DNA from: Prostheceraeus crozeri
Lineage: Eukaryota; Platyhelminthes; Polycladida; Euryleptidae
Length of the DNA: 64,000 nt
Assembly (NCBI GenBank): GCA_907163375.1
Contig: CAJQUW010015581.1
Coordinates: forward strand, 1 to 64,000
Reading direction: 5' to 3'
Part shown: positions 5,488 to 62,262 of the stretch, piece by piece
How the letters are laid out: each line of letters starts with the position of its first letter
Numbering within the stretch: position 1 is the stretch's first letter
Notes under the pieces: generated by a model
Told to the model about the DNA's origin: nothing
Database searches by the model: none
The model's input: only the letters and a program-made list of their open reading frames with translations
Made by a program: the position numbers and the translations under genes

Positions 5488-5665
5488 TGGTTGTGGCTCA
5501 TTGATCATGTTTGTGGTCACACTTTGGATGTCACAGTGACGTCATATACAGGCGGTCATTCTGACGTCTTTGATGGGAGGTCACTGCGACATCCCGTTCT
5601 GGTCATAGACGTCTCCAGACGCATGATGACGTCAATGGGACGTCGCAATGACGTCACAATGTTTA
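5488..5665 (-). repeat. GACGTC-rich repeat (copy 2)
   Basis: Repeated TGACGTC, GGGACGTC and GACATCCC words, homologous to 1600-1905 but inverted. Its right edge reads, on the minus strand, CCCAGTAAACATTGTGACGTCA and directly replaces the C-terminal codons of the adjacent pogo transposase, so it either inserted there or marks a truncation breakpoint. Confidence 0.65.
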
Positions 5666-6677
5666 CTGGGAACACACTTATATCGAGTGGCTGAGTCTTG
5701 TGACTTGTGTGGGGCACCAGTGTGAGGATATGAATGTTGTTCTTTCTCGCAAATTCAAGTGATGGCAGAGACAGGTGGCTTTCGTGATTGTCCATTATGA
5801 GGAGTAGGCCTACAGGATAATCTGACGAATGCCTACAATGATCTTTGAAATGTTTCAATGCGTCAACAAATTTCTCAGAATTCATCCAGCCATTGCTTGT
5901 TGCTACTCCAACACTCCCTTCGGGAGCGTTTCGCAACATCAAGTTGTTATATTTCTTTCGCGGAAATACGAAGAATGGTGGTATGGCCTCACCAATGGCA
6001 GAAACAATGCAGCATACTGTTACTAACTCGCCTCTATCTCTGCTTGATATTTGTCCAATTTGTTTACTTCCCCGGGATGCTACAACTTTAGGCATCTTTT
6101 GAACCGTGGTGAAACCACTCTCATCCAGATTGTATATCTGTCTTCCCCTGAATTGAAATGACTGCAACACATGCTCAAGTTTGTCAAAGTATTCTTTAAG
6201 ACTAGCTTCATTGAAAGATGCGGCTCTGGCAAGTGATGTTGCTTCCGGTCTTCGAATCGACAAGTCAGGGTGACGCAGCATAAATCCATGCAGCCAATCC
6301 AGACCAGCTTTCTTATCAGCGTCCCAATTCTTAGGATGCCTGAGGCTATTAAAAACTGCCGTTTGGTATGCTAATTCTCTGGTTTGATTGGTTGTTAAAC
6401 CATAGAACATAGCTGAACAGGATTTTAAATATTCGCATATTTCAATTTCCTGTTCATCAGTGAAAACTTGCGATCTCTTAAAGTTTGTAGCAATGCTTGC
6501 CTCCGGAGTATTTCTGAGTATATCGACCTTTCTTCTTATAGTTGTGCGTGGGATACATGTTGATTGGGCGACCTTAAATGCTTTTTCGCCATTTAACACC
6601 CTTTCAACTGCTTTTCTTACATATTCTTCTGTGAAGGGTGTTCTACTCGCATCCTTTCGAGAGTACCTTCGCGGCAT
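5556..6677 (-). CDS. Pogo/Tigger-type DDE transposase, C-terminally truncated
   Basis: The 373-codon frame from the ATG at 6677 is intact. Residues about 15-55 look like a psq-type helix-turn-helix and 105-155 like a CENP-B-type DNA-binding domain (WLHGFMLRHPDLSIRRPE). The catalytic acids are D185 (NLDESGF), D296 (LIMDNHESH) and D332 (HKTQPLDISVF). There are 35 residues between the last two, fitting the DD35D spacing of pogo-like enzymes. From about residue 337 (near base 5670) the family sequence stops and the frame reads into the GACGTC repeat, so the normal C-terminus is missing. The element is therefore probably inactive; a domesticated use of the N-terminal part cannot be excluded. Confidence 0.9.
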   Translation of the reverse strand: MPRRYSRKDASRTPFTEEYVRKAVERVLNGEKAFKVAQSTCIPRTTIRRKVDILRNTPEASIATNFKRSQVFTDEQEIEICEYLKSCSAMFYGLTTNQTRELAYQTAVFNSLRHPKNWDADKKAGLDWLHGFMLRHPDLSIRRPEATSLARAASFNEASLKEYFDKLEHVLQSFQFRGRQIYNLDESGFTTVQKMPKVVASRGSKQIGQISSRDRGELVTVCCIVSAIGEAIPPFFVFPRKKYNNLMLRNAPEGSVGVATSNGWMNSEKFVDALKHFKDHCRHSSDYPVGLLLIMDNHESHLSLPSLEFARKNNIHILTLVPHTSHKTQPLDISVFPVNIVTSLRRPIDVIMRLETSMTRTGCRSDLPSKTSE

Positions 6678-10503: not shown

Positions 10504-11433
10504 TTAATTTGTTCTGTTCCTGTTATAAGGGAGACCACCTCTATTCATATGACGTCCACGATTATACGGATTGAAGAAGCTTCTTCGATTCCGTCGTGTT
10601 TCATGACTTGAAACTGATCTATCATGATGCCAACTACCAGCATTCATTGGATAAGGAAAATCGCAATGACGGCCGGAAAACGACGAATTAGTGAAGCTAT
10701 TTCGATTATCGTGACCATTATCGTTATGTGCTGATTTGTACGGATTTAAAGCTGCAAATCGGCTGCCACCATAACGATTTGAGTTGTAGCCGTTTGTCAG
10801 TGAATTCACACTATCAGTATTAGATGTACCGTCGATATGTAGACAATTTACTCGATCTCTTATACTCGGAAATTCGAATCCATTACCAGAAACTCGTTTC
10901 TGTTCACGTAGAGATGCAAGATACAGTGGTCGTTCAATAGGGTGCCCTCTACCATCAGCAAATGCAGATATCGCCTCTGCAGGGGTCATATCTAATTCAT
11001 GGATCATATAATGACACAGAATATATCCAGTTCGATTAACTCCGTGGGTACAATGTACGGCAATAACACTGTCAGGCGGAGCAGTATCAATGAAATATTT
11101 CACTGCGTTCGTGAACTCCCTAAGCACAGACATATTAGGTATCACATGTCCCTCAGTGAATATCTTTTTATGCACTATTCCATTGCTTTCAAACTCCATT
11201 CCATTGTAATATCTTGTCGTATATGTCAAATCGATTACCATTCCAATTTTCAAGTTTTTGTCACTGCATAGTTGCATGAAGTTTTTAGGACTGAACTGCT
11301 GACTGGGATCCTCCAAATGAATATTCAAATGCTCCTTCAAGGGAACTTTAAATGGTAAAAATCTTGTGCCCCGAATGACTTCATGAAAAGGCCGATAATC
11401 GGTCCAACGATCAGGAATTTTGGATTTCGGCAT
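10504..11433 (-). CDS. DUSP11: DUSP11/PIR1-like RNA 5'-phosphatase
   Basis: This 309-residue frame matches the RNA 5'-triphosphatase branch of dual-specificity phosphatases, which remove 5' phosphates from RNA in the nucleus. The signature HCTHGVNRTGY lies at residues 127-137, with catalytic C128 and R134 of the HCx5R loop. The N-terminus IPDRWTDY, VIDLTYTTRYY near residue 67 and GRGHPIERPLY after the loop are family features. The C-terminal 100 residues are N-, R-, S- and G-rich, as expected for the low-complexity tail. I chose the ATG at 11431-11433; the preceding TTG is not a usual animal start. A pyrimidine stretch ending in AG at 11441 suggests a 5' UTR intron just upstream. No frameshift is present and length is close to vertebrate DUSP11. 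It could be a single-exon gene or an intact retrocopy. Confidence 0.9.
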   Translation of the reverse strand: MPKSKIPDRWTDYRPFHEVIRGTRFLPFKVPLKEHLNIHLEDPSQQFSPKNFMQLCSDKNLKIGMVIDLTYTTRYYNGMEFESNGIVHKKIFTEGHVIPNMSVLREFTNAVKYFIDTAPPDSVIAVHCTHGVNRTGYILCHYMIHELDMTPAEAISAFADGRGHPIERPLYLASLREQKRVSGNGFEFPSIRDRVNCLHIDGTSNTDSVNSLTNGYNSNRYGGSRFAALNPYKSAHNDNGHDNRNSFTNSSFSGRHCDFPYPMNAGSWHHDRSVSSHETRRNRRSFFNPYNRGRHMNRGGLPYNRNRTN

Positions 11434-11450
11434 CAATGGTCTGAAAATAC
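11434..11450 (-). promoter_or_regulatory. Candidate splice acceptor before the phosphatase start
   Basis: On the minus strand GTATTTTCAG ends at 11441, eight bases before the ATG. It would place a non-coding first exon further right. No matching first exon was identified. Confidence 0.4.
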
Positions 11451-17439: not shown

Positions 17440-19470
17440 CGTTTCTATGAGTTCCTCGAAAATACTATTCGAAGTATGGTGAATTAGCCTCCCATCATTG
17501 GCGGAGATTTTAACGATCATGTAGGTACTGGTGGATGGTTGGGATGGTCTTGCGAGAGCTTTGATCGAAGCTGGTAGGACGACCTGTGCCACCACTAGAG
17601 GCGGAAAATTTAGAAATTTCGAAACCTGGTGGTGGCAGAGTGAAGTGCAGCAGACCGTCAGGCACAAGAAAGAGGTCTTTAGGAAAAATGAAAGAGGGCA
17701 AGGAAGCGTACAGGCTCGCAAAGAGACAGCCTAAAGCAGCGGTGGCCAAGGCTTAACATGATGCAACGGAAGATCTTTACCAGAAGCTGGGGACCCGAGA
17801 AGGGAAAACGATTGTGTACCATATTGCTACTGCGACAGATAAAGTGAGAAAGGATAATCATGAAGGATGAGTCGGGTCAGATTATCACAACGGCAAATGG
17901 AAACAGACAACGCTAGGCAAACTACTACGAAGCCTTGCTGAACCAAACCAGGCCGCATGAAGAGATCCCTACTGGAGCTGCTGTTGAGGGTTCGGTGGAG
18001 ATGACTACAGGGGATGAAGTGGCTGACCAGCTGAAGAAAATGGGATCGGGTAGAAGTTGTGAGCCGGATGACATTCCCACTGAAGTTTTCAAGGTGCTTT
18101 GGTATTATGGCTTGGACCTCCTGGTGTACCTCTTCAATGAGATACTGATATCAGGAAGGATACCGGACACGTAGCAGAAAAGTGCAATGACACCTATCTG
18201 CAAGGGTAAAGGAGACCATCAAGATGTTGGAAACTATAGCGGTATCAAGCTTCTCAGTCATACCATGAAGATCAATGAGAAAGTTTTGAAGAAGCGTCTC
18301 CGTGATTTTATTGAGGTGGATATGAGTCAGTTTGACTTCAGAACAGCAGTTGGCAAAACAGATCCAATCTTTTGTCTAAGAATGGCGATGGAGGCATTCA
18401 CAGAGAAAAATAAGCCTTTCCACGCTGTGCTCGTCGATCTCGAAAAGGCCTATGATACAGTCCCAAGGAAGCTAATATGGAATTGTCTCCGCACACGGGA
18501 AGTACCGGAATGTTACATCCATTTAATACAGGATATGTACAGGGACAGTACAACTGTAGTGAGATGTAGACAAAGTGAAAGTCGAGCTTTTCCTGTCTCG
18601 GTTGAGCTATATCAAGGCTCAGCACTAAGCCCTTTTCTCTTCATTGTAATGTTGGATGAGATTTCCAAGGAATGCAGAAGAGGTGTTCCCGAGAATATGC
18701 TATACGCCGACGATCTCGTATTATTTGGAAGCAGTCATCACGATGTGGAGCGAAGGTTGGAAGCATGGAGGGCAGCGTTTGAGAGCAAGGGCCTAAGGGC
18801 AAGCCGTTCAGAGTATCTGTCGTCCGACCCAGGAAGACCAACGATGGAAATTCAAAGTCAGCCGTTGAAGAAGGTGGACTACTTTAAATATCTGGGGTCC
18901 ATAGTCAATACTGAGGTGACCAGCGGAAGTGATGTTCCACATCGAATGCGATGCGACTGAAACACATGGAAGAAACTGAGCCCAGAACTATGTGACAGAA
19001 GGATGCCACTTAAGATAAAGAGCAAAGTGTACTCCTCGATGATAAGGCCAGCAATTCTGTATGGTTTGAAGTGTTGGGCCTCTCTTGAGACGGATGAGCA
19101 GAAGCTACACGTTGCGGAGATGCGGATGCTAAGGTGGATGCAGGGCTGCACACGCTTAGACCGGAAGACCAACGAGGAAATACGATCAAATGTGGAGATA
19201 GCCCCAATACAAGAAGTGGCAAGATCAAAAAGGCTGGCATGGTTCAGTCATGTGCAGAGTCGGTGAGAGTCATCCCCTTAAGAAGGTACCCTGTCAGCAA
19301 GTGGAGGGAAGAAGAGGACCTGGAGGTCGACTGTGAACGCCGATATGAAGGCAAAAGGAGTGGATGCCTCACTGGTCAACACCAGAAAAAGAATGGAAGA
19401 AGAGGACTGCACCTACCCTGGGATACGCGGGACAAGGGTCAGCAAGGTGAGCCAGAATATTTTACGACAA
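17440..19470 (+). pseudogene. RTE-like non-LTR retrotransposon (endonuclease and reverse transcriptase), degraded
   Basis: An endonuclease motif GGDFNDHVG is encoded near 17500-17526. A TWWWQSEVQ-type linker follows at about 17625. The reverse transcriptase covers about 18000-18800: a KMGSGRSCEPDDIPTEV block, NYSGIKLLSHTMK, VDLEKAYDTVPRKLIW, an LYQGSALSPFLF block and the active site YADD at 18703-18714. The C-terminal block RPAILYGLKCWA...EMRMLRWM lies at 19045-19140. It resembles the RTE clade (BovB/CFDP2-like proteins). Inactivating stops lie at 18172-18174 and 18958-18960, with frameshifts before 17940 and after 19260. The 5' end is incomplete. Confidence 0.85.
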
Positions 19471-32449: not shown

Positions 32450-33936
32450 TCTTCCTCTTCTTTTCATTCAAAATGCCTGTTTTGACCTCTTGGCTCCGCA
32501 CTTATTCCTTTCTAGCTTCTCGATATCGCGCAGCGGAATTTCAAGAAGACAAAATCAGTTTCTTGGATACGTCAAAATTACGAGCATCCCCGTCATACAT
32601 AGCGCGCGTAAGATCTTTGACTATTCTTTGAGCAATAAGAGAAAGTTAGTTCTCTTTTTGATTCTCATCTCTTTATTGACCGAGGAACCTCTTTCCATCG
32701 AAGCTGTCCATAGCTCAAACAGAATGATTTGGCACGAGTCGTTCAAGCTCAGGAGAGGAATTATCTTTTTAAAAAGCAATGGAGTAAACAGTCATCAATT
32801 CTGTTTCTTCTTTGGTCAAACATCTCCAAGTAGAACTTCATGGGATTGTTTGATGTCAGAAATATGCATTGATTCTTCATGTCATCTGCCTCGAATTTTG
32901 AAAATTGAGTGACAATATTTTTCCCCATCAGTTCATCCGAAGTCTTATCTGATGATATCAATTTCCGTTTGGTATCTGGGGCCATAAACAACGGATCCAA
33001 GCAAGATTACTCCTCGTAGAATGGATACTTGGAAGGCACCAAAATAGCATTCAAGAATTCCAGACACTTTGAAGAAAATTCTTCCTTAGAAATCTTCCTC
33101 CAGAAAATTGATTATTATTGCCTTGACAACTGATGTGTGGTGGTGAGGGTTTGATCCTGCCAATTGACAGAGTCGCGTAAGTGGCTCGTAGCTCAGTTGG
33201 TTAGAGCACAGGTCTAGTTAACCTTGGTCGTAGGTTCGAATCCTACCAGCCGCACATCTTTTGCATGGCAATTTGATCTATCGTTTATTTAATTTCATTG
33301 TTGTTAATTATGTATATCCGCTCAGTCTGCCGATTTTACGTCTGATATCGCTGCAAAGCCAATGTCAATTGCTTTCAGTTACGCGAAATTTTTTCAGTCA
33401 CGGGCAGCTTCAGTTTTTTGAACTGTTGACAGGTTTTCATAACATATGGCTTGATAAACCGATTCGACAGCGAATTTATGATTCTCTCACGGATTCAAGC
33501 GGGAATGGAACGACGGGCTTTTCATCTTGAAATTTCTTCATGAAAACCTCAAATTCCTTGGTTATTGTGACGAAAAGACACACAATTTGGCCTTTAGGCG
33601 AGGATCATTCAGCATTTCCCTCACGTTCTTGTAGGACGTGTCAGGTTGCTTCTTGATGTTTTCGACATAACGTCGCCAGTTTGCCAATAGTTCGATGATC
33701 ACTTCTGCAACTGCTACGTTCTCAATCCATCGAGTCGCACAATACTTGGGTGGTGCGTGTGGGTCACTGCGAAATGTCAATAATCCGCTCAACGAGACGG
33801 AAGATCTTTAAAAACTTCCCAACAACTTCGCAGGAATTTCATCAGTTCGCAGAGCACCGTCGATGATGTGCAGGGAGCAACTTCCTACATTTGTCCAAAA
33901 CTGTCATCATGTTCACGAGATTCTTCAAACGGACGG
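32450..33936 (-). pseudogene. hAT transposase remnant, middle and C-terminal part
   Basis: Reading leftward: SLHIIDGALRTDE (about 33840-33880), PPKYCATRWIENVAVAE (33720-33770), RFIKPYVMK with QFKKLKLPVTEK (about 33400-33475), SCLDPLFMAPDTK (about 32965-33010), then a dimerisation-type region with SVNKEMRIKK (about 32670) and RIVKDLTRAMYDG (about 32600). These match the order in hAT-family transposases. Stops and frameshifts are numerous, and a tRNA-like sequence lies within it. The N-terminal part continues beyond 37604. Confidence 0.75.
33181..33254 (+). tRNA. tRNA-like sequence (degenerate tRNA-Thr-like or SINE head)
   Basis: The A box TAGCTCAGTTGG (33189-33200) and B box GGTTCGAATCC (33233-33243) are perfect. 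D-arm and T-arm stems form, and the anticodon position reads AGT, which would be threonine. However, the acceptor pairs only as GTGGCT with AGCCGC and leaves an extra base before the D arm, and the base of the anticodon stem is mismatched. This points to a pseudo-tRNA or tRNA-derived SINE head rather than a working tRNA gene. It sits inside the decayed hAT. Confidence 0.6.
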
Positions 33937-34289
33937 CACGGTGTCCCCATTTCAACATTCAGACTCAAAAAATATACCATCGGCCAAACCTGTTTTTTCA
34001 TGATCCATGACCCATTTGAAGTGTGTAATCGCAAAAAGGAAAATTTTTTAATGCTCAGATTTTTTTAAATGGCCAATTTTCAAAATGGCGGCTATTTTCG
34101 TTATGTGTGTCCTCTTTTTTTCAACTCAACGCATTTCCGAGACAAGGTAGCCGTCATAACACTATATATTGTTGTAATGCATCCATAAAATACTTGAAGG
34201 AATTGTCAAGTACTGTCTGCATAGGTGACATATCTATTTTATGAGTAGTACGTCCAAGTTTTACCACTATTTTGCAAAAATAGAAAATA
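33937..34289 (+). repeat. Left terminal inverted repeat of the RAG1-like transposon
   Basis: 353 bp, same length as the right copy with no indel and about four substitutions. It starts with the heptamer CACGGTG, then 23 bp, then AAAAAATAT. Confidence 0.95.
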
Positions 34290-35034
34290 ATTTCATTCAT
34301 TTGTTAAATCAGAAATTTTCCGCAGCTATTGAAATTGCAAAAGTAATTGAAGCTCAGAATCTAAGACTTTACAAATGTAGATAGTGATCTTCAAAACCTA
34401 TCCTTTATAGCTATCAAATGAAATCTCGAGCGTCTTTTGTCACCTCATTTATTCTATCATCGTATTTTTTTCTATGACATGTCTTATCTTCACATCTCAT
34501 GTTATGTTTTGTCACCATAATAGACTAACAAGATCATTTTTCTCAACGTCTAGAGCAGACTCGGAAAAGGCTCATTGTTTCAGATTACCGGCTACATAAA
34601 GTCATTAGTAAAGCCACCATATAGCATGCAAGTGTGATATAGAGTCTAAGACTTTACAAATGTAGATAGTGATCTTCAAAACCTATCCTTTATAGCTATC
34701 AAATGGAATCTCGAGCGTCTTAGAGGTATCTCGTGAGTTTAGAGGGTAAAGAATTCTCCTCTTCATACTTCTATTTATTATATTCTTTACTCTTTACTTC
34801 TATAAAGATATAGAAGCCATAAAATATCTATTGTCTTGACTCGTTATGTTGCGTGCGGTAATAGCATTGTTCGATTTCTTCATTAAACTGCTAGTGCATC
34901 GTGATTGATTGAAACTGATTGATGAGTCATACCAAAGATATCCATGGTCATACACATGTATGTTTTGGCATAAATATAACATAGGAATTGAATTGTCGCT
35001 CACTGGTAAATTTTTGATTTCATTTACGATCAAA
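34290..35034 (+). other. 5' non-coding part of the RAG1-like transposon with a 77-bp direct repeat
   Basis: The segments 34360-34436 and 34645-34721 are identical except for one base and lie 285 bp apart. The leader otherwise has no recognised motif. An in-frame ATG at 34909 would add 42 residues to the transposase but without similarity. Confidence 0.7.
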
Positions 35035-36986
35035 ATGGCAACGGCGTTAGATGAAACACACGAAAAACTACGGAAGAGAGTATGCATCGTTTGTTACCGG
35101 AAAGCGTCGAGAAATCTTTCTGCTAAAGAAATTTCTATCGTACAAGAACATTTAATTGAACACTTTGACATAGACAATCCTGATTTTCCCAGTGGCGTTT
35201 GTGGAGGTTATCACATGCTATTACTGAAGAAAGGTAAAGGGGACAGTGTTGACTTTTTTCTACCAGATGACTACGATCCGCGACGTCAGACAAACACTTG
35301 ATCCTGCAAGAAATGTGAGTGTAGAATTTGCTCTGTTGCACTGATGAGCCTACAAGATGCAGTTAAATTGAAACGGAAATCAGGCCGACCTCAAACAAAT
35401 GTGATTCCACCTGTAGAACATTTCAAAATACGTGGACGTTGTTTTGCAAAGATCTATAGAGGAAGTAACCATTCAGTTGAAATGTGCTCTTCTAGACGGG
35501 CAAGAGTTTGCAACGTTGAATCTTTGTTGGATTCCTCTTCAAAGCAAACTAAACAGCGAGTTGCAAGTAGAACCATCAACAAATCCACGCTGGGAAACTG
35601 CGATCGAAGAATCCCGCCGAAGAGAAAAAGCCTAGAAAGTCCTATTATTCAGGCAAATACTTTTACAAAAATTCAACAAAGACTTTATTTAAGTACTCGA
35701 GAAGTAAACAAGCTATCACAAGATCTACGAAATTCTAACCCCGGAATTGTAGAACGTCGTCTTAGAGACAAACTATTTGAACTGAATCATTCATTGGATG
35801 GATTCTTTGACCTTCGATTACTGCCATTCAAGATCCAAAAATCTGACGACGATTCAAAAGAAGAATGGGCAGTTGTTTGTCGTGATTTGAACGTTTTCGT
35901 CGATTTTGTTCTTCGAGAAAGAGGTATTGACAATGACTCTGCTTTGATAAAGATCGGCATCGATGCGGAGGTGGTTTTATAAAATGTTGTCTTTCCATCT
36001 TCGATCCGTCAGATGATGCAACAGCAGGCACATCAAGGCGTTCGGAATTCAAAGACTCAGGAGTCAAACGTTGCTTCATTATAGGCATCGTTCCTGAAGT
36101 ACCCGAGAACTACTACAATCTGAAACAGTTGTGGATCAATGTCGGCATTCATTTGCTCAACCGGAAATTTACGATTGCCAGTGACCTAAAATTGTGCAAT
36201 ATTTTGCTCGGTCTGATGTCACATAGCAGTGTGCATCCATGCTCATGGTGCGATATCAAAAAAGATCGACTCGATTGCAAAGAAAATCAGAGAACTCTCG
36301 GTACTTTGAGGAAACTGTTTTGGAATTACTATGACGATGGCGCAGTGAAAGAAAAGGCAAAATATCACGGTAACGTCGTTCATCCTCCAATGTTTTGTGG
36401 TAAATCCTATATCACCACAGTTATTTCTCTCGTTCCCCCACCTGAGCTACATTTGCTTACAGGACAGGCAAATACCATATTCTCGGCTTTGCGAAAACTT
36501 TGGCCACAGGCTGACGAGTGGTTGCTACGCTGTGGTATCCAAAGAGAAGGCCTGCATGGAGGAAGTTTCACCGGGAATGCCAGCAGGAAGTTGTTGGCGA
36601 ATGTTGATGTTCTAGAGCAAATGGCTCCGAATAATCAGATTGTATTTGTTGAGGCATTCAGGCGTTTCAAAGACGTCATCGACTCATGCTATGGAAGTAC
36701 CTTGGATGCTGACTATGCCACAAAAATCGAATTATTCAAGATATCTTATCAAAAATTGAAGATCCCAATCACACCGAAGATCCATGCCGTGATTTTTTAC
36801 ATTTCTGAGTTCTGCTCCTTCAATGGCAACAAAGGTCTTGGGCCATGGAGCGAGCAGACTTCAGAATCCGTCCATTATGATTTTCAGCGTGTGTGGGACA
36901 ACTACAAAATCCGCAGCACTGAGAACAATAATTATGGCAAACAATTGTTGTCTGCTGTATGCAGATACAATAGCTTGCATTTATGA
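35035..36986 (+). pseudogene. RAG1-like transposase, about 650 codons, two clear lesions
   Basis: Start chosen at MATALDE (35035; A at -3, G at +4). N-terminal residues 15-105 hold cysteine motifs VCIVC, a GVCGGYHMLL segment and CKKCECRIC, in the order of the RAG1 N-terminal region (CRIC, FCHNCW, SCDIC). The core resembles RAG1 and Transib: first D in IGID (35962-35964), second D in ASDLKL (36183-36185), then SVHPCSWC, PELHLLTGQAN, FTGNASRKLL, and E in SEQTSESV (36864-36866), corresponding to D600, D708, the C727/C730 pair, LHCDIGNA, GNFARKLM and E962 of RAG1. Lesions: TGA at 35299-35301 in the cysteine region and a one-base deletion at about 35965 next to the first D. The zinc-binding histidine expected five residues after PKIH is a tyrosine. 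Closest named family known to me: N-RAG-TP of Aplysia. Confidence 0.85.
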
Positions 36987-37250
36987 ATTTTCTAATTATG
37001 AATGAAGTTCGTTTTAGCACCTGGTAGTGTGGCTTGGTAGAATTAACTTGTTGATCTTGTTATTGAAACATGTCTTCTCTGAGCAAAATTTGGATAAAAA
37101 AGTCTTTTCTCTCATCCTGTAATATGATTTGATACTCGAATACTGAATGGTCAGTACTTCTTCCGATAGATAATGCAAATGTAACATGCTTCATGCATCG
37201 TGTACGGCTATAGCGAAATCTTTCATTGCATGAAAATACAGACTCAAAAA

Positions 37251-37603
37251 TATTTTCTATTTTTGCAAAATAGTGGTAAAACTTAGACGTATTACTCATA
37301 AAATAGATATGTCACCTATGCAGACAGTACTTGACAATTCCTTCAAGTATTTTATGGATGCATTACAACAATATATAGTGTTATGACGGCTACCTTGTCT
37401 CGGAAATGCGTTGAGTTGAAAAAAAGAGGACACACATAACGAAAATAGCCGCCATTTTGAAAATTGGCCATTTAAAAAAATCTGAGCATTAAAAAATTTT
37501 CCTTTTTGCGATTATACACTTCAAATGGGTCATGGATCATAAAAAAACAGGTTTGGCCGATGGTATATTTTTTGAGTCTGAATGTTGAAATGGGGACACC
37601 GTG
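37251..37603 (-). repeat. Right terminal inverted repeat of the RAG1-like transposon
   Basis: Reverse complement of 33937-34289 with about four mismatches. Between the stop codon at 36986 and this repeat are about 265 bp without motif. Confidence 0.95.
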
Positions 37604-38200
37604 GTACGGTGTGTTGCAATATTGACATTTGTACCATCCATTACCACCTACAGGAGTTAAGAATTCCAGGCATCGACCTCTCCCTCAAGAGCTTTGTGCA
37701 ACTCAGATGTAGAAGAATGTCCAAGAAATTCAGAATTCAGGTATCTTGTCATTCATCGCCCTGTCTTCAATCCAATACCTACCGAGAACATCCATTTGTC
37801 CGCGATGCATCTACATGAGTCACGCAGCACTTCAGACCGTGTCATCTGAGTCCTAATCAGCCATGCACTGCATATGAACGCGCAAGGCGTGGGAGTACTG
37901 AAACTGCGGAATAATCTCCAGAATCAACTCGCCCATTGAGACAGATGAAGACCGATCTACCTCAAGCTCACATCAATGGCATGAGTCAGATGAGAAAGCG
38001 AAGCACCTGTCCTAATGCCGGGGATCCAGACTTCCTCGGCTGAGTATGCATATTCCGTCCGGACATTTTCAAACCAGCTTTCCTCATCCAACAGAGTGGA
38101 TCGGGACGCAGCTTCAGAGAAAAGCGCAGCAGGAAATTAAGAAAGCACGTGAAAGCAACTGGCCTTCTCAGTACAAATTACTGAAATTTAATTAAGCAGA
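37604..38200 (-). pseudogene. hAT transposase remnant, part before the insertion
   Basis: The minus strand reads VMDGTNVNI at 37618-37644, the hAT block that holds the first catalytic D (usually MDGPNVN). The reading is then cut by the RAG1-like transposon and resumes at 33936. Further upstream the protein is too decayed for domain assignment. Confidence 0.65.
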
Positions 38201-46369: not shown

Positions 46370-48112
46370 ATAATTGGAGTTCATTAACTTTAGTCTGTTT
46401 ACAAGATGATGCCTGTGACAAATTAACATCACCAAGTCTTCTCACAAAAACGAGTTGTTCGGTTAGTGTTCCGATTTGATCGGCAGGGGTTTCTATGCCA
46501 TTTCTGACTAGCATTTGATGTGAACAAACAGCCAGAGAGACAAAATGTTCGCCGATCAAAAGGATTCATTGAGGAATTTTTCCTCTGAGTAGGCCTAGTG
46601 TTAGAGAAAATCGTGAAACTTCACCAAGTCCTCTCACAAAAACCACTTGTTCGGTTGGTGTTCCGATTTGATCGACAGGGCCTTCTATGCATTTCTGGGT
46701 AGTATTTGATGTTTACAACATCATAAAGAGGAGAAATGTTCGCCGATCAAAAGGATTCATTGAGGAATTTTGCTTCTGAGTAGGCCTAGTGTTAGAGAAA
46801 ATCGTGAAACTTCACCAAGTCCTCTCACAAAAATGACTTCTTCGGTTGGTGTTCCGATTTGATCGACAGGGGTTTCTATGCATTTCTGGGTAGTATTTGA
46901 TGTTTACAACATCATAAAGAGGAGAAATGTTCGCCGATCAAAAGGATTCATTGAGGAATTTTTCCTCTGAGTAGGCCTAGTGTTAGAGAAAATCGTGAAA
47001 CTTCACCAAGTCCTCTCACAAAAACGACTTGTTCGGTTGGTGTTCCGATTTGTTCGGTAGGGGTTTCTTTGCATTTCAGAGTAGCATTTGATGTGAACAA
47101 ACAGCTAGAGCGAAGAAATGTCCGCCGATCAAAAGGATTCATTGAGGAATTTTGCCTCTGAGTAGGCCTAGTGTTAGAGAAAATCGTGAAACTTCACCAA
47201 GTCCTCTCACAAAAACGACTTGTTCGGTTGGTGTTCCGATTTGTTCGGTAGGGGTTTCTTTGCATTTCAGAGTAGCATTTGATGTGAACAAACAGCTAGA
47301 GCGAAGAAATGTCCGCCGATCAAAAGGATTCATTGAGGAATTTTGCCTCTGAGTAGGCCTAGTGTTGGAGAAAATCGTGAAACTTCACCAAGTCCTCTCA
47401 CAAAAACCACTTGTTCGGTTGGTGTTCCGATTTGATCGACAGGGCCTTCTATGCATTTCTGGGTAGTATTTGATGTTTACAACATCATAAAGAGGAGAAA
47501 TGTTCGCCGATCAAAAGGATTCATTGAGGAATTTTTCCTCTGAGTAGGCCTAGTGTTAGAGAAAATCGTGAAACTTCACCAAGTCCTCTCACAAAAACGA
47601 CTTGTTCGGTTGGTGTTCCGATTTGTTCGGTAGGGGTTTCTTTGCATTTCAGAGTAGCATTTGATGTGAACAAACAGCTAGAGCGAAGAAATGTCCGCCG
47701 ATCAAAAGGATTCATTGAGGAATTTTGCCTCTGAGTAGGCCTAGTGTTGGAGAAAATCGTGAAACTTCACCAAGTCCTCTCACAAAAACCACTTGTTCGG
47801 TTGGTGTTCCGATTTGATCGACAGGGCCTTCTATGCATTTCTGGGTAGTATTTGATGTTTACAACATCATAAAGAGGAGAAATGTTCGCCGATCAAAAGG
47901 ATTCATTGAGGAAATTGACATTGGAGTAGGCCAACTTGACAAGAAAATCCTGAAATTTCTCCATGTCCTCTCACAAAAACCACTTGTTCGGTTGGTGTTC
48001 CGATTTGATCGGTAGGGGTTTTTTTTGAGTTTCTGTGTAGTATGTGATGCTATTATCTAGATACACTGTAGAAATGTCCGCCGATCAAAAGGATTCATTG
48101 AGGAAATTTAGT
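46370..48112 (+). repeat. 191-bp satellite array, nine units with A/B variants
   Basis: GATCAAAAGGATTCATTGAG recurs nine times at about 191-bp spacing. Units fall into type A (GGTAGTATTTGATGTTTAC core) and type B (GAGTAGCATTTGATGTGAAC core), in the order B-like, A, A, B, B, A, B, A, then a divergent end unit. The B-A dimers starting near 47160 and 47540 are almost identical, showing a 382-bp higher-order period. Identical 64-codon minus-strand frames in three B units are repeat translations, not genes. Confidence 0.9.
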
Positions 48113-49770: not shown

Positions 49771-50858
49771 CGTGGTGAGATCAAAAATGATTTAGACTCG
49801 ACCAGAAGGAATAATGCTACGACTTAGATATTTCACACTGGATGACTAATGAGTGTATAGGCAACAAATATCGTAATGATAACTTTCATTGATATTTTTT
49901 TCTTTAGTATTTTTATCGATTTTAAATATTTAGTATTTTTCAGCATTTTAGTTGATTTTTGCCATACATTTCCTTTCTTGAAAGTATTTTGACAGATACA
50001 TTTACTTCGAACATGACTTGCATAAACTTCAATAGGGTCTGATTTGTATTCATCAATGTATTCAGTTGTTTTGATTGTTATAACAATCACGAGCAGTACC
50101 GAGTGTGAGTTGTGTTCAAAGGTCAGTTGATGCTGACAATCTTCTGGAACAGATGCGGCATTGTTCATATGGATTTCGTCGACCGACATCAGCGACTGAA
50201 TACCGAGTACTACTGTGCGCAACTTCGTAAAGCTCGTCAAAGTGTTCGAAAACCCCGCAAACAGAATCTTCATCTACTACACGACAACGCGCCCATCCAT
50301 ACTGCAGCGACCACTACAACTGCAATTGAGGACTCAGACTTTCATGTGCTTCCTCATCCCCATAGCTCCGACTTAGCTCCAAGTGACTATTTCCTATTCC
50401 GCTATCTAAAGCATCATCTCAGGGGAGAGCGTTTTGTTAATAGTGAGGATGTGAAAGATGCAGTGATGGAATTTTTCAATTCCAGAAGTCGAGACTTTTT
50501 CCACGAGGCTTTTCGAGAGCTTCCTAAAAGGTGGAGCAAGTGTGTAGAGAATGAGGGGATTACATTGAGAAGAAATGACTTGTATTTACTTTTAAAATTA
50601 ACATTTTGTGGATTAGCTGTTGTACTTTTGTGGCATATATTCAGAGGGAAGTTAAGGAAATGTATGGAAAAAATCAATTAAAATGCTGAAAAATACTAAA
50701 TATTTAAAATCGATAAAAATACTAAAGAAAAAAATATCAATGAAAGTTATCAATACGATATTTGTTGCCTATATACCCATTAGTCATCCAGTGTGAAATA
50801 TCTAAGTCGTAGCATTATTCCTTCTAGTCGAGTCTAAATCATTTTTGATCTCACCACG
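49771..50858 (+). mobile_element. Mariner element with 205-bp inverted repeats nested in the hAT
   Basis: Starts CGTGGTGAGATC and ends with its complement, flanked by TA on both sides (49769-49770 and 50859-50860). Arms 49771-49975 and 50654-50858 are equal in length and differ at only a few positions. This is unusually long for mariner elements, whose inverted repeats are often about 30 bp. It encodes only the second half of a transposase. Confidence 0.9.
50112..50681 (+). pseudogene. Mariner transposase, C-terminal half only
   Basis: Open frame of 189 codons with no ATG of its own at the start. MLTIFWNRCGIVHMDF is the family block after the first catalytic D, which is itself absent. LLHDNAPIHTA holds the second D and DLAPSDYFLF the third; 33 residues separate them, one fewer than the canonical 34. 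RSRDFFHEAFRELPKRWSKC is the usual C-terminal block. Because the N-terminal DNA-binding domain and first D are missing, this is an internally deleted, non-autonomous copy whose remaining frame is still undamaged. The frame runs on into the right inverted repeat. Confidence 0.9.
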
Positions 50859-55579: not shown

Positions 55580-56345
55580 AATGTTTACTAACAACTCTGT
55601 ATGACAGTGAACGGATGTCCCACATGCTAGCTGAAAATCACATTCAATCAACTGTCCTGTCCACTCATCCTTCCCATACAGCACTGGAACATAAAACATA
55701 CACCTGCATGTTTTCTCATCAAAAACAATCACTCTCCACAACTCCTCTCTATGAAAACGCATAGAAGTCCCAGACACTAGCTCAAATACATGTCTACTCA
55801 CTCCAACCGTATTCACCATTCCCTGAGGAGCCTGCAGATGCAATTTGATGCACATCTATGCATATTAGATCGAAAATCTGTGTTTTTTCATCAGAAACAC
55901 TCATTCTTCACTAACTACTCTCTACGAAAACGCATAGAAGTCCAAGACACTAGCTCAAAAACACGTTTACTCACCCCAACCCTATTCATCACTCCCTGAG
56001 GAGCCTGTAGATGTAATTTGATGCAGATCTATGCATATTAGATCGAAAATCTGTGTTTTTTCATCAGAAACACTCATTCTACACTAACTACTCTCTATCA
56101 AAACGCATAGAAGTCCCAGACACTAGCTCAAAAACACGTTTACTCACCCCAACCGTATTCATCACTCCCTGAGGAGCCTGCAGATGCAATTTGATGCACA
56201 TCTATGTATATTAGATCGCAAATCTATTTGTTTTTTCATCAGAAACACTCATTCTTCACTAACTACTCTCTATGAAAACGCATAGAAGTCCCAGACACTT
56301 GCTTCTAGAGGGGGCAAGTTTACTCACCCCGAACCCTATTCTTCA
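55580..56345 (+). repeat. 174-bp satellite, left array (four to five units)
   Basis: GCATAGAAGTCC recurs at 55759, about 55932, 56106 and 56280, a period of about 174 bp. Each unit carries CTCCCTGAGGAGCCTG and TTAGATCGAAAATCTGTG. Units in this arm are close copies with few indels. The outermost unit (55580-55750) is strongly diverged. Confidence 0.85.
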
Positions 56346-56374
56346 TAATTTACAAATTCCAGATGTATTTCAAT

Positions 56375-57790
56375 AGAGAGCAGTGGTTAGTGAAGAATGA
56401 GTGGTTTTTGATGAAATAACACATAGATTTTCGATCTACATATGCATAGATGTGCATCACATTACATCTACAGGCTCCTCAGGGAGTGATGAATAGGGTA
56501 GGGGGAGTGGTAAACGTGTTTTTGAGGTAGGTGTGGGACTTTATGCATTTTCATAGAGAGTGTTAGTGAGAATGAGTGTTTTTGATGGAAAAAACACAGA
56601 TTTGATCTAGTATGCATAGTGTGCATCAATTAATCTACAGGCTCCCTCGGAGAGATGAATTGGGGTGGGATGAGTAAACGTGTCTTAGAGTAGTGTCTGG
56701 GACTTTCTATGATTTTCAAAGAGAAGTGGTTAGTGAAGAATGAGTGTTTTTGTTGAAAAAACACATAATTTTCGATCTATATGCATAGATGTGCATCAAA
56801 TTACAGCCTCTACAGGGTTCCTCAGGGAGTGATGAATACGGTTCGGTGTGAGTAAACGTGTCTTAGAGCTAGTGTCTGGGACTTCTATGCGTTGGGATGA
56901 GAGTAGTTAGTGAAGAATGGAGTGTTTTTGATGAATAAAAACACACAGATTTGTCTAATATGCATAGATGGCATTCAAATTACATTCTACAGGTCCTCAG
57001 GAAGTGATGAATACGGTTTCGGGTGGTCAACGTGTTTTGGAGCTAGCGGTGTGGGACTTCTATGCATTTTCATAGAGATAGTTAGTGAGAATGAGGTTTT
57101 TGATGAAAACACACATAGATTTTCGATCTAATATTGATAGATGTGCATCAAATTACATCTACAGGCTCCTCAGGGAGTGTGATGAATTGGGTTGGGCTGA
57201 GTAAACGTGTTTTTGAGCTAGCGTGTGGACTTCTATGCGTTTTTTCAGTAGAGAGTAGTTAGTGATGAATGAGGTTTTGATGGAAAAAACATAGATTTCG
57301 ATCTAATATGCATAGATGTGCATCAAATACATCTTACAGCTCATTCAGGGAGTGATGAATAGGGTGGGGATGAGGGGTAAGTGTTTTTGAGCTAGCGTGT
57401 GGGTTTCTATGCATTTCATAGAGAGTAGTTAGTTAGAGAAAGAATTGAGCTGTTTTTGATGAAAAAAAACACATAGATTTTCGATCTAATATGCATAGAT
57501 CTGCAGCAAATTACATCTACAGGCTCCTCAGGGGAGTGATGAATACGGTTGGGGTGGTAGGTAAACGTGTCTTAGAGCTTGTTGCTATGGGACTTCTATG
57601 CGTTTGAATAAGAGAGTAGTTAGTGGAAGAATGAGTGTTTTTGATTGAAAAAAACATAGGATTTTCGATCTAGTATGCCATAGTGTGAATCAAATTACAT
57701 CTACAGGCTCCTCAGGGGGTGATGAATAGGGTGGTGGTGAGTTAACCGTGTTTTTGAGTAGTGTCTGGGACTTCTATGCGTTTTGATAGA
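56375..57790 (-). repeat. 174-bp satellite, right array in opposite orientation (about eight units)
   Basis: The same unit in reverse (CAGGCTCCTCAGGGAGTGATGA and GGGACTTCTATGCGTTTT) recurs about eight times. Here units carry frequent one-base losses and gains, in contrast with the clean left array. The switch point lies near 56345-56375. Open frames inside are not genes. Confidence 0.85.
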
Positions 57791-57989
57791 GAGAAGTTTG
57801 TATTGCCTATTGCAATTTTCATGCTACAACTTGTTTTTGACGACAGCTGTCAGCTGGTGCCATGTTTATGTTGTTGGTTGGCATAATGGGTTGTTATTTA
57901 GGTTGAGTTTGGGAAATTGTGGGAACCTGTGCGAGGGGAGAACACCTGAGTTTGGTGGGATAACTATCTGCTATTAGTAAATTAATAGA

Positions 57990-61189: not shown

Positions 61190-62262
61190 ATAGCAATGTT
61201 CCACAATCCATTGTGGTCATCCGTTGAGTACTGATGTATCCGCCAACTTGTGACGACCGCCACGTTCAAAGCGTTACTGAAAAGGTTCCAGTACCACTTT
61301 CTCGTACGAAGCCTTGGGCGTTAGGAGCCCAAGAGACGGCCCATAACATCGACACCTCCCACCCATATACTGGTTGTATGAGCGAACCAACTTTGGCTGC
61401 GCAACGTCTTTCCTACGTTTCTCTTTCGTGCTCCATCGCTTCACCTTAGTAGTTGGAGTGGCTACTTCGAATTTGCTTTACAATATTCACAACAGCATTA
61501 TCCTTCCATTGGCACACGAATACTGTTCCATCAGAACGAAAATCAAAGGTGCCCTTTTCTTTTTTCTTCATCATTTGTTTGCCAAGGGGACATCTGTTCA
61601 TGCGATTCTCTCTTATGGGGCCAGTGGCTCTAATGCCTTTCGAAGATAAGTCAGAGAGTAATTTATGGCTGGTGAAAAAATTGTCAAAATACACTGCATG
61701 ATGCTCTGCTGCTTCCACCACATCCAGTAATTCCGCAACTACGCGTGACCCCATAGGATCTGGGGATTTCTCAGATTTTCCACTATACAAAAGAAGACGA
61801 AACGGATATCCGTCGGGAGTACAGAGTGACCAAATCTTGTAGCCAAAGCGTATTGACTTCCTCTTTATAAACATTCTTCCAGAATGATGTCCATAGTGAG
61901 GTACCATGGATTCGTCAATACTCAAATGTTCAGCAAAAACTCCACATTGAGAAAATTGCTGGTTCAAATGATCATAGAAGGGTCTGATTTTCGAATACTT
62001 ATCTCCTGGTGTTAGACGATTATTATCAACAAAATGAATGCTGTTCTTGATTTTCTTGAAGCGGTCTCTGGACATGACTTGACTGACTAGATCAAAGCGC
62101 AAGTCTGGTGCAGTCGTCCAATACGCATTTTCGAAGGGTAGAATATGGTATCCACTCAAAATCAAAATTCCCAAAAAGCGCAAGAGCTCATCCTCAGATA
62201 CATTGAGCGGAGAACCTTTTGAAAGATCAAATGCTCTTACAAAATTTAGACCCAGGATAGAA
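61190..62262 (-). pseudogene. piggyBac-type transposase, degraded
   Basis: The main frame (62262 to 61446) runs through SEDELLRFLGILILSGYH and contains the three catalytic acids: D in LSIDESMVPHYG, D in VYFDNFFTS, and D in QWKDNAVV, the piggyBac pattern. A frameshift at about 61445 follows KQIRS; the family continues in another frame as TTKVKRWSTKEKRRKDV and SYNQYMGG, then shifts again into GGVDVMGRLLGS and RTRKWYWNLFSNALNVAVV, ending near 61200 with a stop inside. No ATG heads the main frame: a stop lies just upstream of 62262, so the N-terminus is lost. Terminal TTAA sites were not identified. Confidence 0.85.

Follow-up and report, generated by a model that had tools for sequence, protein, structure and literature searches.

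Chapaev transposons, of the CMC superfamily, reportedly go back to work by Kapitonov and Jurka in 2007. Their hallmarks, according to passages of PMC4079192, are target duplications of 3-4 bp, CAC...GTG ends and the motifs C(2)C, LH and H(4)H. The relevant sections of PMC4411706 already describe Chapaev and Chapaev3 transposons with a cysteine-rich N-terminus joined to a RAG1-related core, an excerpt of PMC3985635 assigns the domain DUF1280 to Chapaev and groups it with RAG1, and RAGL, Transib and RAG yield 5-bp duplications according to part of PMC7204232. Here we analyze a 64,000-nucleotide stretch of contig CAJQUW010015581.1 (the window), in which an element of 3667 bp at 33937-37603 carries a single plus-strand gene between long inverted repeats. 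With high confidence we assign it to the Chapaev superfamily (CMC), as a decayed copy of a cut-and-paste DNA transposon; the genome, of about 2 Gb, is apparently that of an invertebrate. The first-pass annotation had seen in it a novel joining of RAG1 N-terminus and core that would bear on the origin of RAG. Its novelty was not supported: the architecture is that of Chapaev and has been in print since at least 2015.

Ends, copies and target duplications

The features of the window copy are as follows.

33937..34293, plus strand: left terminal inverted repeat, outermost 7 nt CACGGTG
37247..37603, minus strand: right terminal inverted repeat, which complements its left counterpart at 352 of 357 positions
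33931..33936 (GGACGG) and 37604..37609 (GTACGG), no strand: left and right flanks, exact 4-bp duplication absent
34649..34734, no strand: about 86 bp without a counterpart in the close copies compared
35035..36986, plus strand: single broken transposase gene of about 650 codons, with TGA at 35299-35301 and a frame change near 35967
35077..35247, plus strand: N-terminal C-x2-C...C-x2-C finger, residues 15-71, ZAD-like; one Cys of the second pair is lost here
35314..35331, plus strand: C-x-C-x2-C motif, residues 94-99, invariant in aligned relatives
35962..35964, plus strand: first catalytic Asp codon (RAG1 D600 equivalent), immediately ahead of the frame change
36183..36185, plus strand: second catalytic Asp codon (RAG1 D708 equivalent)
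36852..36854, plus strand: other conserved Glu, E626 (P0003 numbering)
36864..36866, plus strand: Glu codon aligned with RAG1 E962 (E630, P0003 numbering)

The clean inverted repeats of the first-pass annotation are there, 357 nt long with five mismatches. The terminal repeats end in 5'-CAC and GTG-3' in the window and its close copies, with the exception of L027, which has CATGGTG at one end, and in several other lineages repeat arms located without reference to any motif also end at CACGGTG. Note that a later survey of 29 loci looked for the CACGGTG motif itself and is not independent evidence for the ends. Part of the stretch at 34649-34734 coincides with 34641-34721, where the second copy of an 81-nt direct repeat lies; this repeat is single in 17 of 20 close loci and lacking in the other three.

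The search of the element's own genome, covering 2.05 Gb in 14,165 contigs, returned at least 137 matches, one of them the window itself, at identities between 44% and 100%. Twenty close copies were fetched; both ends were resolved in 15, and the other five were dropped. Together with the window (n = 16) these show an exact duplication of 4 bp in nine cases, of 3 bp in two, of 2 bp in two and of 5 bp in none, with 2/240 in the crossed control for the 4-bp duplication. From other lineages 29 further loci were taken, 20 of them resolved and nine dropped, and here the exact duplication is 4 bp in 18 of 20, 3 bp in one and 5 bp in none (crossed control 0/380). Pooled, 27 of the 36 copies with both ends resolved carry an exact 4-bp duplication, and none carries one of 5 bp. 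As side observations on inexact flanks, 1-2 nt are missing at one junction in L011, L017, L023 and L047, and two extra palindromic bases stand in the window and in L021, the latter with a further mismatch. These could be due to variable stagger, mutation or opening of a flank hairpin; we did not retain the hairpin reading, as variable stagger or later mutation explains the flanks equally well.

We place the element with Chapaev because target duplications in its family are of 4 bp. This family also shows the other printed hallmarks of Chapaev: its ends read CAC...GTG, and its transposases combine D-D-E with the motifs C(2)C, LH and H(4)H. Membership in Chapaev3 rather than in Chapaev in the narrow sense is very improbable: superfamily and motifs are shared. 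According to passages of PMC4079192, most Chapaev3 transposases are apparently single-exon, but the Chapaev3 elements examined there duplicate 3 bp, TWA, and the one from silkworm encodes a transposase of 556 aa, whereas we find 4 bp in 27/36, TWA in none of the nine 4-bp duplications listed for close copies, and proteins of about 650-700 aa.

In the Chapaev lineage of the window, 15 other complete copies span 3535-3965 bp; of these, 11 have one gene and a length of 3557-3584 bp. Among loci of other lineages, the main terminal repeat arms are 97-99.8% identical in 17/20. The loci fetched by region number 49 (L009-L057), many of them picked for a long frame in the genome search; in 24 the PELH motif lies within a stop-to-stop frame of 640 codons or more, and all 20 key residues checked are retained in 17 of the 24. 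The 24 long-frame loci form seven lineages with 36-52% mutual identity, that of the window among them, and L029-L057 represent at least six more open-frame lineages of Chapaev besides it. Open frames of about 650 codons, which the first-pass annotation had proposed to look for in the same genome, thus occur in some copies, and the family looks to have been recently mobile in this genome.

The transposase and its RAG1-type core

Reading through the gene confirmed what had been annotated at this place, one gene with two lesions: the frame is open from 35035, meets the TGA at 35299-35301 and shifts near 35967, and the cysteine motifs and core motifs follow in the order named before, with IGID, ASDLKL, C-W-C, LHLLTGQAN, GNASRKLL and WSEQTSES along the gene. 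The window copy retains the catalytic D, D and E, the anticipated equivalents of D600, D708 and E962 lying at the codons listed above, and has lost three presumed zinc-ligand positions (C74 to Tyr, C151 to Arg and H609 to Tyr; P0003 numbering, as for all key positions below). In view of the TGA and the frame change, alongside these three losses, it is very improbable that an active enzyme is made from this copy.

A protein search with the read-through, X standing at the stop, found 128 relatives at E <= 0.001, of which 120 were listed; the best is 58% identical (E 4.4e-244), and 30 of the 31 first-listed span at least 96% of the query. Given 128 relatives, the motif set of the gene is, on sequence grounds, more than chance. 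Scans of viral and prokaryote contigs revealed no relatives, and NCBIfam gave nothing useful. As evidenced by an alignment of 62 near-full-length relatives picked among the 120 listed, D331 and D403 are present in 62/62 and E630 and E626 in 61/62, C422 and C425 of the C(2)C motif and L491-H492 of the LH motif in 62/62, and H604 and H609 of the H(4)H motif in 61/62, the second His being absent from the window copy.

The predicted structure of the core is of the RAG1/Transib type, an RNase H fold with D-D-E and with C(2)C and H(4)H zinc ligands. Together with its flanking parts it matches RAG1 460-996, and the core shows RAG1 architecture across about 410 residues at a structural identity of only 12-16%; Transib and BbRAGL are nearly as close. 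The RAG1/Transib-like core of the first-pass annotation is thereby upheld, by predicted structure and the conserved D-D-E, and RAG1 architecture emerges in a Chapaev core for which comparing sequences directly with solved structures gave no hit.

That the element stands alone without RAG2 was likewise supported, no second gene having been found inside it: at E <= 0.01, Pfam matched none of its five minus-strand frames of 60 aa or longer. Genome-wide, neither PF03089 (RAG2) nor PF12940 (RAG1), the latter search including these copies, matched at E <= 0.001, but since none of 14 control genomes was matched by either, absence of RAG2 or RAG1 from the genome is not established.

The recombination signal sequence (RSS) heptamer is CACAGTG. 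Membership in Transib or RAGL (RAG1L), which would make the element part of the RAG lineage proper with the RAG1 N-terminus kept and RAG2L lost, is very improbable, for although Transib and BbRAGL come almost as near to the core fold as RAG1 does and the terminal CACGGTG resembles the RSS heptamer, there are no 5-bp duplications in 36 copies, structural identity to RAG1 is low, the Pfam RAG1 N-terminal family matches none of 19 fragments, no Pfam RAG1 family stands among the best 25 of 41 families matched by relatives (ordered by members and E, the 25th reaching one member at E 0.09), and PF12940 adds its weak genome-wide negative.

Several observations weigh against the Chapaev assignment or its RAG1-type core. 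The assignment was made by printed hallmarks, and a clean target duplication, sought at both flanks of the window copy (GGACGG and GTACGG), gave no exact 4-bp one. In the window's own lineage DUF1280 has no convincing match (P0001 with E 0.034; L010 with none at E <= 1). A sequence search of solved structures with the family profile returned neither RAG1 nor Transib, and full-length profile comparison with RAG1 had a stated probability of only about 1%. In core slices that probability was 29-55%. Among the 62 relatives, on the other hand, DUF1280 was matched by 17 at E <= 1; the match lay above the cut-off in P0066 and, outside alignment A1, in P0115, and below it in one of seven own-genome frames (L041, E 0.0089). 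A search of solved structures with single protein pieces yielded no RAG1, Transib or ZAD.

The cysteine-rich N-terminal region

Upstream of the core, the ZAD-like finger is succeeded by more Cys/His motifs. In this region C71, C109, C111, C114, C151, C154 and H164 are present in 62/62 aligned relatives and C32, C35 and C74 in 61/62. The cysteine motifs that the first-pass annotation had called RAG1-like are thus real, while their identity with RAG1 is undemonstrated. A profile of the N-terminal region compared with the RAG1 finger region, represented by vertebrate RAG1 only (23 of 120 listed), gave a score that 6 of 100 shuffles reached; for a tighter slice, picked afterwards, this was one in 100, or four in 100 with the Cys columns fixed. 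PF12560 (RAG1_imp_bd), the Pfam family of the RAG1 N-terminus, matched 0/19 N-terminal fragments at E <= 10, and the Pfam family zf-AD (ZAD, PF07776) matched 11/19 weakly, below the Pfam cut-off where seen. A structural search with the N-terminal model had very weak ZAD rows as its best, and in Foldseek steroid-receptor fingers (E 2.2) and ZAD (E 2.0) were about equal. On these results, and by the refuting condition named in the first-pass annotation, a better match to an unrelated zinc finger, the RAG1 identity of the N-terminal half is in doubt. Foldseek and VIA listed no RAG1 chain for this model, which says little, as the RAG1 88-223 chain 21wb_A is possibly outside the structure library; a sequence search of solved structures with the N-terminal profile and one N-terminal fragment gave no RAG1, Transib or ZAD. 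RING appeared only in stray weak matches, Prok-RING_1 in 1/62 (E 0.01) and zf-RING_4 in 1/19 (E 0.28).

In its relevant sections, PMC4411706 equates the 'Chapa' finger of Chapaev with part of the RAG1 N-terminus and notes RING in two Chapaev subgroups. In published terms the C-x-C-x2-C motif (residues 94-99) is probably part of this 'Chapa' finger. The six-frame search of the element's own genome with zf-AD had no match at E <= 0.001, and with 0/14 control genomes matched absence is not established. After this unhelpful search we consider it rather unlikely that the Chapaev N-terminal finger, the arthropod ZAD and the RAG1 N-terminal finger share a single origin. The common origin of THAP and P-element fingers offers a parallel, and ZAD proteins are transcription factors. 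If true, a jumping gene would have given the vertebrate V(D)J recombinase its N-terminal finger and a large arthropod transcription-factor family its dimerisation domain. We found no paper with ZAD and Chapaev both as whole words, subscription journals being outside that search, and within the literature searched the link between finger and ZAD is one lead not found in print.

Surroundings, proposed mechanism and related systems

About 0.7 kb upstream of the element lies a tRNA-Thr (AGT) gene at 33181-33255 (plus strand). At 10504-11436 (minus) the window holds a dual-specificity phosphatase gene, nearest to RNA/RNP complex-1-interacting phosphatase, whose protein search returned mostly invertebrate names, the best named matches being the molluscs Pomacea and Aplysia at 50-51% identity. 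Pieces of other mobile elements are found at 5556-6677 (minus; DDE_1 with a weak Tc5-type helix-turn-helix), 18187-18960 (plus; reverse transcriptase), 50112-50681 (plus; Transposase_1) and 61446-62183 (minus; DDE_Tnp_1_7), and tandem arrays at 46425-48109 (unit about 191 bp), 55709-57801 (173-175 bp) and 909-1391 (about 53 bp).

By analogy with RAG1, Transib and Hermes, one transposase, probably as a dimer, would pair both long repeats and nick beside the terminal CAC; a hairpin would form on the flanking DNA, freeing the element, and the freed 3' ends would be joined to the target 4 bp apart. The N-terminal finger may aid dimerisation or end binding. Observed are the ends, the family's 4-bp duplication, conservation of the active site, and other copies in this genome with open frames, to which the predicted fold is added. 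Many Chapaev copies in one animal genome that have open frames, clean ends and clean 4-bp duplications offer material for two questions: by what route a RAG1-type core cuts DNA when RAG2 is missing, and how a stagger of 4 bp compares with that of 5 bp in RAG and Transib. The published account of RAG origins is unchanged by this element.

N-RAG-TP of Aplysia is said to contain RAG1 N-terminal-like sequence and to be wholly an N-terminal part (both from an excerpt of PMC8355894), in which it differs from the element; the comparison is one of description. Compared with RAG1/RAG2 and RAGL (ProtoRAG), no RAG2-like gene was found in the element, its duplication is of 4 bp, its structural identity to RAG1 is the 12-16% given above, and N-terminal homology was not demonstrated in this analysis. 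With Transib it shares the predicted RAG1-type core fold with D-D-E; Transib makes a 5-bp duplication in contrast to 4 bp here, and a long cysteine-rich N-terminus sets the element apart. From Chapaev nothing defining separates it, this being a new set of families with RING seen only in the stray matches. It has the same ends, 4-bp duplication and C(2)C, LH and H(4)H motifs, and, with no RAG2 found, the same single transposase in which an N-terminal cysteine-rich finger is joined to a RAG1/Transib-related core.
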